IMG/VR virus record: IMGVR_UViG_3300025449_000048
Location: 1 to 25,621 of that record
Length of the DNA: 25,621 nucleotides
From: a virus
Strand: one strand, 5' to 3'
Of the stretch, positions 859-5,178 are shown piece by piece. The notes below the pieces were generated by a model. It worked only from the letters and a program-made list of their open reading frames with translations, was not told the origin of the DNA and searched no databases. A program made the translations under genes and the position numbers. The stretch's first letter is position 1. Each line of letters starts with the position of its first letter.

Positions 859-1563
859 ATGCCATTTAATATAGTTAATTTTAAAACTAATATTTCAGCG
901 AGCGGTTATTTAACAAATAACCGTTTTAAAGTTGTTCTCAACCCACCGCCGATTCTATTCAATTCCTTTATTAATAATACTGGATCTAGTACTTCGATCA
1001 ATAATATAGCAGCAGATATATCATTCAGAGCAGAATCTATAAGAACTCCTGGCATAACATTAATCAATGCAGACGTTAACCACTATGGCGTTGGTCCAAC
1101 CCAGAAACAACCTATGAATGCTCAATTTTCAGAAACAAGTATTTCTTTGATCTCTGACGGCTACGGTAATATGTGGCAGTTTTGGCACAATTGGTTAAGA
1201 GGAATATATGAATTTACTGGAACTTCTTCTGCCCGTTCTGGCGGTAGAGCCAACAAAATACCATCATATACTGCAGAATATAAAGATCAATATTCTACAA
1301 CCATTCAAATTATAATGTATGATATTTTTGGTAAAAAAATTCAAGAAATTAATCTATTTGAAGCATTCCCGACTTCAATGAGAGAAGTAAATTTAAATTG
1401 GGCAGATCAAGGAAATCTTTTAAGATTAAATCTTGGCATTGCATACACAGAATATACAATTGAAAGTTCGGAGGTTACAACACCTTCTGCTAGTCAACAA
1501 TCATCAATATCACAAGAAGCAATAGATAATTTATCACTTTCGACAGGTTTAATAAACTATTAA
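859..1563 (+). CDS. Tail tube / baseplate tube-initiator-like protein (gp54/gp19 type)
   Basis: A 234-residue protein. The middle and C-terminal parts read like the tail-tube fold shared by T4 gp19, gp48 and gp54. There is a FRAESIRTPGITL strand, then NHYGVGPTQKQP, a WQFWHNWL segment, a YKDQYSTTIQIIMYD strand, a LFEAFPTSMREVNLNWADQ segment and a final LGIAYTEYTIE strand. The order 'EAFP...L.WAD....RL...F/Y..Y' is the signature I used. The Ser/Thr/Gln-rich tail (about residues 205-225) is poorly conserved-looking. AGGA sits 7 nt before the ATG. Position beside a hub chaperone favours a tube initiator (gp54) over the major tube protein gp19, but this is inference. Confidence 0.72.
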   Translation: MPFNIVNFKTNISASGYLTNNRFKVVLNPPPILFNSFINNTGSSTSINNIAADISFRAESIRTPGITLINADVNHYGVGPTQKQPMNAQFSETSISLISDGYGNMWQFWHNWLRGIYEFTGTSSARSGGRANKIPSYTAEYKDQYSTTIQIIMYDIFGKKIQEINLFEAFPTSMREVNLNWADQGNLLRLNLGIAYTEYTIESSEVTTPSASQQSSISQEAIDNLSLSTGLINY

Positions 1564-1582: not shown

Positions 1583-2290
1583 ATGTTACCTAAAATTGAA
1601 TACCCTTTATATAATATCAAAATACCTTCTCTGAAAAAGGTTTATAAATTTAGACCATTTTTAGTCAAAGAAGAAAAACTACTTCTCATGGCTAGAGAAA
1701 GCGAAAGTCAAGCTGAGATTTTATCAGCAATCAAACAGATTGTTAATAATTGCTGCACAGATGATAAGTTAGACATTAACAAATTAGCCGTTTTTGATTT
1801 AGAATATATCTTTCTAAAGCTCAGAGCTGTTTCTGTAGATAACATAGCAAAGCTAACATATAAAGATTTTGAAGACGAAGAAACTTATACATTTACTGTA
1901 GATTTAAATGATATAGAAATTATATACCCTAAAAATTTAGAAAATAATATTAAAATAACAGATAAATCTGGTATTGTTATGAAGTATCCTCCAGCATCTT
2001 TATATGATGATGAAGAATTTCTTAAATTAGATAAAAACTATATGTTTGAATTGATCATCAGATGTATTGATAAAATGTATTATGGTGATAGTGTTTATGA
2101 ATCTAAAAACTATAAGAAGCAAGAATTAGAAGATTTCTTAGAAAATCTAGATATGAAAACTTTTGAATCTATTCAGAATTTTCTACTATCTGTTCCTAAA
2201 CTAGAACACACTATCAATTACACAAATAAAAAAGGTAATGAAAGAAAAATCGTATTAAATTCGTTAAATGATTTTTTTACTTGGCGCTGA
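1583..2290 (+). CDS. gp26/gp51-family baseplate hub protein/chaperone (0-frame product)
   Basis: 235 residues. The N-terminus (PKIEYPLYNIKIPS...KVYKFRPFLVKEEKLLLMA) is the hallmark of the T4 baseplate hub family containing gp26 and gp51, which take part in assembling the central baseplate hub. The rest is acidic and lacks membrane segments. GGAG lies 8-9 nt before the ATG. The last codons are Asp-Phe-Phe-Thr-Trp-Arg-stop. The two Phe codons sit in a seven-T run. Reading on in the -1 frame adds 63 residues that look like a conserved continuation (see the frameshift entry). The 0-frame protein and a 295-residue fusion may therefore both be made, as for tail-assembly chaperones of other long-tailed phages. 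Confidence 0.85.
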   Translation: MLPKIEYPLYNIKIPSLKKVYKFRPFLVKEEKLLLMARESESQAEILSAIKQIVNNCCTDDKLDINKLAVFDLEYIFLKLRAVSVDNIAKLTYKDFEDEETYTFTVDLNDIEIIYPKNLENNIKITDKSGIVMKYPPASLYDDEEFLKLDKNYMFELIIRCIDKMYYGDSVYESKNYKKQELEDFLENLDMKTFESIQNFLLSVPKLEHTINYTNKKGNERKIVLNSLNDFFTWR

Positions 2291-2313
2291 GTCATAATTC
2301 TTTACAGAATTAT
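2272..2313 (+). promoter_or_regulatory. Candidate programmed -1 ribosomal frameshift site
   Basis: A T TTT TTT heptamer at 2272-2278 is in exactly the phase needed for -1 slippage (0 frame: GAT TTT TTT ACT TGG CGC TGA). A perfect 7-bp stem (ATAATTC / GAATTAT) with a 6-nt loop lies at 2294-2313, 15 nt downstream. The 0-frame stop follows at 2288-2290. Slippage would join residue Phe232 to Tyr-Leu-Ala-Leu-Ser-His and the 63-residue extension. The stem is AT-rich and farther away than usual, so the heptamer is the stronger evidence. Confidence 0.65.
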
Positions 2314-2469
2314 TTTACAACAATTTTTTCAATGGCTCAGCATCATAAATATTCCATTAGTGAAATTGAAAATTTAATGCCTTTTGAAAGAGACATTTAT
2401 ATCGAAATGTTAATGAATTATCTAAGAGAAGTAGAAGAAGCGAAACAAAGACAGCAAAATGGTAATTAG
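2278..2469 (+). CDS. -1 frame extension of the hub chaperone
   Basis: Open frame of 63 residues entered by -1 slippage at the seven-T run. It has no ATG before residue 19 of the extension and no ribosome binding site of its own. The sequence (SHNSLQNYFTTIFSMAQHH, then KYSISEIENLMPFERDIYIE) is a well-ordered helical segment with the 'QxHKYSxxEIExMxPFERxIY' pattern seen after hub proteins in other T4-type phages. It ends in a charged Lys/Gln-rich tail. The frame overlaps the holin start by 11 nt. Alternatives are an independent protein from the TTG at 2281 or the internal ATG at 2332. Neither has a Shine-Dalgarno sequence. Confidence 0.6.
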   Translation, partial: YLALSHNSLQNYFTTIFSMAQHHKYSISEIENLMPFERDIYIEMLMNYLREVEEAKQRQQNGN

Positions 2470-2989
2470 AGCAGACCCTAACGCTCCTCCTCCATCATCG
2501 CCTGATATCAGCAATGTGGCTGTTCCAACACCCACACCTGTAGCTCCTCCACCTTCTGTCGTAGTTATTGATAATAACAATAATAATGGTGGGAACAATA
2601 ACTACAATAATCAAAACAACCAAACAATGCAGATGGCCACTGCACAAGCTCAAGCTTCTGTTGGGCTTGCACAAACTTCTATTGATAAAGAAGTTGTTGA
2701 TGAACAATTAAAAGAATCAGAAGAGCATTGGATAAAAGCATATTGGAGACCAGCGATGGGCTGGCTTTATATGGCTATTTGTTTTATGGATTTTATTGGA
2801 TTTCCTGGAATTACAATATTTTTACCAGTAATATATAAAGGACTTGGTGTTCAATTTACTTATTCGCCATGGGTTCCTTTAACATTATCAAATGGTGGAT
2901 TAATACATCTTTCGTTTGCAGCAATTCTCGGTGTAGCTGCCTGGACTAGAGGTCAAGAGAAACTAGCAAAAATGAACGGTAGCAGTTAA
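2459..2989 (+). CDS. Holin, 3-TM gene-transfer-release family (PF11351-like)
   Basis: 176 residues. Residues 1-95 are soluble: a Pro-rich start, an Asn-rich low-complexity linker (about 37-56), then an amphipathic Ala/Gln segment. Residues 95-176 form the holin domain, W-I-K-A-Y-W-R-P-A-M-G-W followed by hydrophobic stretches at about 98-117, 119-131 and 145-162, ending AAWTRGQEK. The RPAMGW and G-x-x-AAWTRGQ landmarks fit the three-TM holin family common in alphaproteobacterial prophages and gene transfer agents. Such proteins permeabilise the inner membrane at lysis. The start overlaps the preceding frame and the stop overlaps the lysin start (TAATG). The long Asn-rich linker is unusual for the family. 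Confidence 0.82.
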   Translation: MVIRADPNAPPPSSPDISNVAVPTPTPVAPPPSVVVIDNNNNNGGNNNYNNQNNQTMQMATAQAQASVGLAQTSIDKEVVDEQLKESEEHWIKAYWRPAMGWLYMAICFMDFIGFPGITIFLPVIYKGLGVQFTYSPWVPLTLSNGGLIHLSFAAILGVAAWTRGQEKLAKMNGSS

Positions 2990-5178
2990 TGGCAAATGAA
3001 CTAAGTCAAATAGCAAAAGCAGCAAGCGGTATGAATGCCGCAACAAATAATTTCAGAGAAGCTGCAGATGAACACAATGAAAATATGTCTCGAATTCTTA
3101 AAGACGTACACAATGTATTTGCTTCTCAAAAACAACAAATATCAAGTATTGGCCCACAAATACAGCAAGCTCTTTCTGATAGTCAACAAGGTGTTACTTC
3201 ACAATTAAGTCAAACAAATAGTATATTGAATGCTTCTTTACAAGCGCAATATCAAGTAATAACACAATTACAACATCTTGCTGTTGCTATACAATCATTA
3301 GGTAATCAAAATTCTAATGTAGGAAATAGTAGTGGCAGTTTATTCCAAAAAATTGGTGGTTTAGCTACTGGTGGTAAATTAAATATTTCTAATACTGCAA
3401 AAGTTGGTCTAGGTGCTTTAGGTATTAGCACAGTTGCTGGCGATATGGTAGCTAAAGAAAATAAAATGCAAACTGGCTTCGAAAACATGCCAGGAGCGAC
3501 AATACCTAAAGGTGGTGCGCCAGCTGGTGAAACTGCAAAATCTAATAAACCTGCATCTGCAGAACAAAAAGAATATTATGATAAAATGTATAGTTCTTTA
3601 TTGAAAGCAGCAAAAGAAAAAGGTGTTCCAAATCCAGAAGTTATTGCCAAATTAGGGGCTACACAAACTTCGCTTGAAACTGGTTATGGCCAACATATGG
3701 TTGGTAATAATGCTTTTGGTATCAAAGCTGGAAAAAATGATACAGATAGTGTTAGTGCAGGAACACAAGAATTTGTCAACGGTAAAATGGTTGACACAAA
3801 ACAAAATTTCAAATCATATAAAGATTCTTCAGAATCAGCTGGAGATTATATTGATTTTTTAATGAAGAATCCAAGATATAAAGATGTTCTGGCTGCTAAA
3901 AGTATAGATGAAGCAATAGCTGCTCAATCTAAAAGTGGTTATGCTACAGATCCCGATTATGGTTCTAAATTAGCTTCGATAGACTCAAAGATGTCTGGTG
4001 GCGCCACGCAAACTCAAGTTGCTAGTGCAGTAACACCTCAACCTAATACAGCTGTTCCTCCATCGCCTTCACAACAAGGTGGCAATACACCATCAGTTAA
4101 TGGTTCTGATACAACTCCTATTTCTGGCGGTAACAATAGAGAAAGTGGTGGAGAACAAGTAAGTGCACCAAATCCTATGATGGGCAGAGGTGGTGGTGAA
4201 TTATCACAAGGTGGCGATCAAGGTGGAAATGGTAATTTACCTGATGCGGAATTAGTATCTATCGGTGAAGGTAATCATAGATTAAAACCAGAAGCCGCTG
4301 ATGCATATAAGAAAATGTTAGATGCTGCCAAATCTGAAGGTATATCTTGGAGTGTTACAGATTCATATAGAACTTATGATGAGCAACTCAGACTTGCAAA
4401 ACAAAAAGGTTTATATTCTCAAGGCGGATTGGCTGCAACTCCTGGAACATCAAATCATGGTTGGGGTCTGGCTGTTGATTTAGGTGGCGGTGCAAATCAA
4501 GAAGGCAGCAAACAAAATAAATGGCTACAAGAAAATGCAGGAAAATTCGGATTCAGTAATATTCCAAGAGAACCATGGCATTGGCAGTATGCAGGAGGTG
4601 GCGGTGGCGCTGCCTCAGAGGGTCATGGTCCAAGACAAAATGAAGGTAGTTTTGGATTCGCTAACCAAGGTCAAGGTGGCGGTGGCGGTGGACCATTCCC
4701 AGAACTTGGTAATGTAGGAAAAATTAGTCAGGGCGAAATAGGTCACGGTGTATTAGGTACTGCTGGATTTGCTCAATCTGGTCCTATGGGTATGATGGAA
4801 AGTATGCTTGGTGGTAGAGGTGGAGCTGGCGGTCTTATAGGTGCTGGTGTTAATATACTTTCATCGCTACTTGGTGGTGGTAATAATGAAGAAAGCGGAT
4901 ATCGTGTTGATACCCGCCATGATCGTGGTGAAAATTTATCAAGAAGAGGTGTAGAGCAAACAGCAATGTCTGAACTTGCTAGAGAAGCTTCTATGAAATC
5001 TACTGGAGGTAATGAAGGTTCAAGACCACCAGATGATTATAGACAACCTCCATCAAGATCTGCAGTTGGCATGGATCATAATACTGAAAAATTCTTTGGT
5101 AATGAATTTGCTCCATCATGGTATGCTGAATTAAAAGGTGCATATCCACACGATCTTAAGAACGTAAAATTCTCATAA
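2989..5178 (+). CDS. Two-domain peptidoglycan hydrolase (glucosaminidase + M15 peptidase)
   Basis: 729 residues. Residues 30-110 are a Gln-rich coiled-coil-like region resembling part of a tail tape measure. Residues about 195-330 form a glucosaminidase-type domain (GH73/FlgJ-like) with the candidate catalytic Glu230 in SLETGYGQ and a GNNAFGIKAG motif. Residues about 420-535 form a VanY/M15 D,D- or L,D-peptidase domain. It shows SYRTYDEQ, the zinc motif SNHGWGLAVD (His490, Asp497) and EPWHWQY (Glu528, His531). Long Gly-rich linkers surround both domains. The C-terminal about 190 residues are unrecognised. Coupled to the holin by TAATG. The coiled-coil start and size suggest a virion-associated, hub-linked lysin rather than a simple endolysin, though it could act as both. 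It ends at a strong hairpin. Confidence 0.85.
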   Translation: MANELSQIAKAASGMNAATNNFREAADEHNENMSRILKDVHNVFASQKQQISSIGPQIQQALSDSQQGVTSQLSQTNSILNASLQAQYQVITQLQHLAVAIQSLGNQNSNVGNSSGSLFQKIGGLATGGKLNISNTAKVGLGALGISTVAGDMVAKENKMQTGFENMPGATIPKGGAPAGETAKSNKPASAEQKEYYDKMYSSLLKAAKEKGVPNPEVIAKLGATQTSLETGYGQHMVGNNAFGIKAGKNDTDSVSAGTQEFVNGKMVDTKQNFKSYKDSSESAGDYIDFLMKNPRYKDVLAAKSIDEAIAAQSKSGYATDPDYGSKLASIDSKMSGGATQTQVASAVTPQPNTAVPPSPSQQGGNTPSVNGSDTTPISGGNNRESGGEQVSAPNPMMGRGGGELSQGGDQGGNGNLPDAELVSIGEGNHRLKPEAADAYKKMLDAAKSEGISWSVTDSYRTYDEQLRLAKQKGLYSQGGLAATPGTSNHGWGLAVDLGGGANQEGSKQNKWLQENAGKFGFSNIPREPWHWQYAGGGGGAASEGHGPRQNEGSFGFANQGQGGGGGGPFPELGNVGKISQGEIGHGVLGTAGFAQSGPMGMMESMLGGRGGAGGLIGAGVNILSSLLGGGNNEESGYRVDTRHDRGENLSRRGVEQTAMSELAREASMKSTGGNEGSRPPDDYRQPPSRSAVGMDHNTEKFFGNEFAPSWYAELKGAYPHDLKNVKFS

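Follow-up and report, generated by a model that had tools for sequence, protein, structure and literature searches.

Does the gene at 1583-2290 of this phage DNA encode one tail protein, or two proteins that differ by a -1 ribosomal frameshift just before the stop codon? The window analyzed here is the whole of IMGVR_UViG_3300025449_000048, a virus record of 25,621 nt, and the parts of the locus and the upstream tail tube gene lie on its plus strand. A sequence-only reading of this DNA had proposed a programmed -1 frameshift in a gp26/gp51-family baseplate hub gene. The proposal was examined by comparison with related phages, by RNA structure analysis and by structure prediction.

Reading frames at the locus

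ORF1 (1583..2290, ATG to TGA) encodes a 235-aa protein of the T4 gp26/gp51 family, here called the short form (TAC-N). Its match to the PF12322 profile (T4_baseplate; E = 1.3e-55, residues 10-232) scored 189 bits against a gathering cut-off of 24.5, placing the protein within the gp26/gp51 family, and phrog_150 ("baseplate hub") matched it with an E-value of 4e-59. The 3' end of ORF1 reads GAT TTT TTT ACT TGG CGC TGA. It contains the slippery heptamer T TTT TTT at 2272..2278 (GA-T TTT TTT-AC), whose phase fits the X XXY YYZ pattern of -1 slippage, and 9 nt separate the end of the heptamer from the 0-frame stop TGA at 2288..2290.

An overlapping -1 frame was open from 2272 to 2469. Entered at codon 2278-2280, it encodes 63 residues (YLALSHNS...QQNGN) and a stop (2278..2469), forming the C-terminal domain of the long form. 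This extension matched phrog_634 ("baseplate hub assembly catalyst"; E = 3.6e-25) and the C-terminal part of T4 gp51, and tblastn with it matched 538 phage records. A Pfam search of the domain returned nothing meaningful. The junction of the two frames lacked both a nearby ATG and a ribosome-binding site. The closest candidate start for the -1 part was a TTG at 2281, without a Shine-Dalgarno sequence, and the next ATG was internal, at 2332. The sequence-only reading was thus borne out on the in-phase heptamer, the 63-residue frame and the missing binding site, while its "no start codon" was nearly, not strictly, right. Conservation suggests that ORF1 up to Phe232 would be joined to the -1 frame in a long form (TAC-NC) of 295 aa (1583..2469).

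Conservation of the slippery site and the -1 frame

Relatives were collected in two scans of viral contigs with peptide patterns placed outside the slippery site. The survey set contained 86 non-redundant, untruncated one-gene relatives, including KVP40, S-PM2 and P-SSM2, with protein identity falling to approximately 30% in the most distant members. The second scan supplied the best 80 of 590 relatives, those closest to the query, so members on the window's side of the family are over-represented.

An in-phase T TTT TT[T/C] was present just before the stop in all 86 relatives (T TTT TTT in 40 and T TTT TTC in 46). The -1 frame was open at the slip in each of them and extended 51-74 codons beyond the stop. 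In total, 11 named phages carried both the heptamer and the -1 frame: the three named above and eight further phages from distant groups with the same site (Cr30, phiN3, Aeromonas 65.2, Ah1, HTVC008M, pf16, C48C1, and S-CAM9).

The first Phe codon of the heptamer was TTT in 86 of 86 relatives, whereas at other Phe positions of these genes TTT made up 68% and TTC 32%, and the codon before the Phe pair ended in T in all 86, counts that are inflated by the relatedness of the sequences, though their divergence is large. This apparent synonymous constraint at the slippery site counts for frameshifting. Differences among the relatives in the -1 frame fell at codon positions 1:2:3 in the numbers 14503:8136:25344, and the third-position excess indicates coding constraint on this frame. 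In 32 of the 86 relatives the -1 part had no ATG, GTG or TTG among its first 15 codons, and a start codon together with a Shine-Dalgarno sequence was found in only two. Conservation of the slippery site, the check that the sequence-only reading had called for, strongly supports its programmed -1 frameshift in a gp26/gp51-family gene. That reading would have been contradicted by relatives with both parts in one frame and no slippery site; the one-gene relatives keep the different frames and the site, and T4 and its near relatives have two genes.

Two loci showed the short/-1 arrangement without a canonical heptamer: phage fGh-Ecl02 of the Ackermannviridae (L108, 2340-2513) and Vibrio phage K361 (L109, 2200-2400). 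Both end in TTC-NNN-TAATG, and a non-canonical slip or stop-start coupling may operate there.

Candidate stimulatory elements

All 40 T TTT TTT sequences, the window's clade, were examined for a downstream stem in an ungapped alignment (A3), with no selection by pairing. A long-range stem was recovered with its 5' arm at 2286..2294 (GCTGAGTCA) and its 3' arm at 2333..2341 (TGGCTCAGC), so that the 0-frame stop lies within the stem. In the window it comprises 9 bp, eight Watson-Crick and one G-U. Across the 40 sequences the stem was paired in 92.2% of cells, with 11 compensatory cells; sliding the partner by 1-3 bases reduced pairing to only 21-36%. Covariation was 0.249 compared with 0.178 ± 0.014 in shuffled alignments, and 0 of 500 shuffles reached the observed value. 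RNAalifold recovered the inner eight pairs unaided. Compensated versions of the stem included CTGAGTTA/TAACTCAG in survey loci L049 and L050, CTGAATCA/TGATTCAG in L028, CTGCGTTA/TAATGCAG in L026, and ATGAGTCA/TGACTCAT in L037. Folding energy in this clade was low relative to a synonymous null (mean z -2.3), with z near zero over the next 60 nt. The spacer between heptamer and stem is 7 nt (2279..2285), with the same spacing throughout A3. A 7-nt spacer is within the usual range for -1 sites. In its position 3' of the heptamer and its covariation, the stem has the properties of a stimulatory element and is a putative stimulator of the slip.

The perfect 7-bp stem described from the sequence alone is probably the inner hairpin of the minimum free energy fold at 2295..2312 (arms 2295-2301/2306-2312). 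The hairpin exists in the window, but it is not shared by most relatives and was rejected as the stimulator; the conserved stem is the long-range one. The idea that all 86 sequences share one downstream structure was also rejected.

The T TTT TTC group differed. RNAalifold found no common structure in this group, and the proximal stem tested there was weak (58.7% paired, near its slid controls). Individual members had strong proximal hairpins, of 14 bp in S-PM2 and approximately 11 bp in P-SSM2. Upstream of the slip, the group carried a Shine-Dalgarno-like GAG-GGN element above codon-usage expectation: the Glu codon of the E-G motif was GAG in 24 of 28 cases against 30% elsewhere, and anti-Shine-Dalgarno energy was -6.1 against -4.6 for the synonymous null. 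An upstream Shine-Dalgarno-like element is also found in dnaX. The GAG-GGN element was absent from the window sequence.

Identity of the products and genomic neighbors

The AlphaFold2 model of the short form had a pLDDT of 92.9. Residues 1-94 of the model matched 3fgx (Z 8.1), 2ob9, the HK97 tail assembly chaperone (Z 7.4), and 3klu, YqbN (Z 6.8); Z-scores near 7-8 can by themselves reflect a common arrangement, and the support lies in these three standing far above the next row (2.8). Foldseek E-values for the short-form model were not significant on their own, and a PDB sequence search with the family profiles gave no relevant match. The C-terminal domain was modeled with moderate confidence (pLDDT 73, pTM 0.43).

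In relatives the chaperone pair sits between the tail tube and tape-measure genes; Cr30 and HTVC008M have a tape-measure gene after the pair. The window has a tail tube gene upstream (859..1563; phrog_45, E = 1.8e-19, and a weak Phage_T4_gp19 match), and a holin followed by a 729-aa hydrolase-bearing protein downstream. Based on the predicted fold match to the HK97 chaperone and the tail tube/tape-measure setting in relatives, tail assembly chaperone appears to be a better name for the ORF1 product than the hub protein first suggested.

The holin-like ORF (2459-2989; GTA_holin_3TM, phrog_3427) starts within the last codons of the -1 ORF. The 729-aa protein (2989-5178), two genes past the chaperone, contains glucosaminidase and VanY/M15 peptidase domains; it may be a tape measure with cell-wall hydrolases or a lysis enzyme.

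Alternative explanations

The GenBank label "baseplate hub assembly catalyst" implies a separate gene, and every named GenBank record examined either annotates the parts as two genes or omits the second. The second part could accordingly be a small gene of its own, translated through coupling or by ribosomes that reinitiate at the 0-frame stop or beyond it, and the TTG at 2281 is a possible start. TAATG or TGATG overlaps do occur in KVP40 and in survey loci L013, L014 and L026, and the Ackermannviridae phage and Vibrio K361 have an overlap ATG and no canonical heptamer. Such coupling is nonetheless improbable for the window, whose junction offers neither an ATG nor a ribosome-binding site, and it fits poorly with the startless -1 parts among the surveyed relatives and the near absence there of starts with a Shine-Dalgarno sequence. 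It would also leave the invariant in-phase heptamer and the conserved stem unexplained, and in T4 gp51 the two parts are fused.

Slippage could instead occur during transcription, with polymerase yielding a -1 mRNA on the T run. The T7-T8 runs in the window's clade would suit this, but 46 of the 86 relatives have only T6 followed by C. A T6 run is short for efficient polymerase slippage. The phase requirement, the spaced covarying stem and the Shine-Dalgarno-like element are features of ribosomal frameshifting, and transcriptional slippage is considered highly improbable, less likely still than coupling. A sequencing error or pseudogene hiding a single-frame gene is favored by the homopolymer run, a common error site; the same architecture at 86 of 86 loci and in 11 named phages, with covariation, refutes it, and its probability is negligible.

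Proposed mechanism

Programmed -1 ribosomal frameshifting of a gp26/gp51-family tail assembly chaperone gene is thus very likely the means of expression at this locus; we infer the slippage itself and its efficiency from comparative sequence. Under this model, most ribosomes would read 1583-2290 and produce the 235-aa, gp26-like short form. A fraction would pause at the stem (2286-2294/2333-2341) while Phe codons occupy the P and A sites; the two tRNAs would then shift back by one base on T TTT TTT and pair again, and these ribosomes would translate on to 2469. The slip would yield the 295-aa, gp51-like long form, extended by a helical domain at its C-terminus. If the two products act as lambda gpG and gpGT do, the tape measure may be coated by short forms, and the scarcer long forms may recruit tail tube subunits.

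Relation to T4 gp26 and gp51

T4 gp26 and gp51 both matched PF12322 over nearly the whole profile, and the extra C-terminal part was present in gp51 only. A long-form profile aligned colinearly with T4 gp51 across the frame junction, whereas its alignment with T4 gp26 stopped where the short form ends. T4 (Tevenvirinae) therefore has as two separate, paralogous genes, encoding homologous short and long proteins, what the window phage appears to make from one. The two proteins of T4 are given as hub assembly chaperones in PMC3004832.

Two separate genes were found in T4, 44RR, an Acinetobacter phage, and EC-F2. No in-phase slippery heptamer lay near the gp26 or gp51 gene ends of the two-gene phages. 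In T4 and 44RR the gp26 and gp51 genes lie on opposite strands, and in EC-F2 they are in tandem. In Enterobacter phage EC-F2 (L113, 2501-3794), gp51-like and gp26-like genes overlap by 8 nt and are followed by gp25; the T4 genes are divergent. The one-gene arrangement also occurs within the Straboviridae, in KVP40, Aeromonas 65.2 and Ah1.

In a tree of 23 proteins, unrooted and with long branches, gp26 and gp51 from phages with two genes fell together on one side of a branch with 93/95 support. This grouping is as expected from a duplication in the two-gene line and does not prove which arrangement is ancestral. A broader account, in which one-gene -1 frameshifting is widespread in the T4 superfamily with lineage-specific stimulators (the covarying long-range stem for the window's clade, the Shine-Dalgarno-like element for cyanophages), and T4 gp26/gp51 arose by a duplication that replaced recoding, has about an even chance of being correct.

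Relation to known frameshifting systems

The window locus is a predicted -1 frameshift of the lambda G/GT type, making short and long tail assembly chaperones. Lambda gpG/gpGT (and likewise P2 E/E') comprises a short chaperone and a rarer -1 long form, as proposed for the window; in lambda the slip is near the end of the short ORF and the genes lie between tail tube and tape measure, as in the window's relatives. The window's family differs in its T TTT TT[T/C] heptamer, its larger N-terminal part with an extra domain, and its occurrence in T4-superfamily myoviruses. We know of no sequence relation between the two families.

Closest to the window are the gp26/gp51 pairs of S-PM2, P-SSM2, KVP40, Cr30 and others, with the same gene, slippery site and -1 extension. 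The cyanophage/KVP40/Cr30 group has mostly T TTT TTC with the upstream Shine-Dalgarno-like element and varied proximal hairpins, whereas the window's clade has the long-range stem. A poly-T -1 frameshift is also described for the tail assembly chaperone gene of the Vandenendeviridae and Andersonviridae (PMC12846349), other phage families in which the motif is GTTTTT; the likeness to the window noted here is one of motif and strategy.

The sequence-only reading held that this strategy was undescribed for T4-type phages, a view that is out of date. T4-like tail assembly chaperones were identified by Vladimirov, Gautam and Davidson (Virology 2022, 566:9-15), as cited in PMC10885494, which reports from that work that some T4-like phages have one short chaperone gene and one long, fused one in place of frameshifting. 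PMC12846349 credits the same authors with poly-T signals for -1 frameshifting in the TAC-N genes of T4-like phages. On the account of these citing papers, the window locus joins an already known kind and the argument for novelty fails. Three details are possibly new: the conserved, clade-specific stem, the alternative Shine-Dalgarno-like elements of the cyanophage-like relatives, and how widely the arrangement is conserved. The literature searched described none of them, which is weak evidence of novelty.

Consequences for annotation

The records of S-PM2 (L019), P-SSM2 (L020), KVP40 (L018), phiN3 (L103), and S-CAM9 (L111) list the -1 extension as an independent gene, named gp51 or "baseplate hub assembly catalyst", and this is probably a systematic misannotation. 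The -1 part is present in hundreds of phage records, where it is commonly given as a separate "baseplate hub assembly catalyst" gene. Those annotations are probably wrong, and the -1 part is probably the C-terminal domain of a longer chaperone, not a gene of its own.
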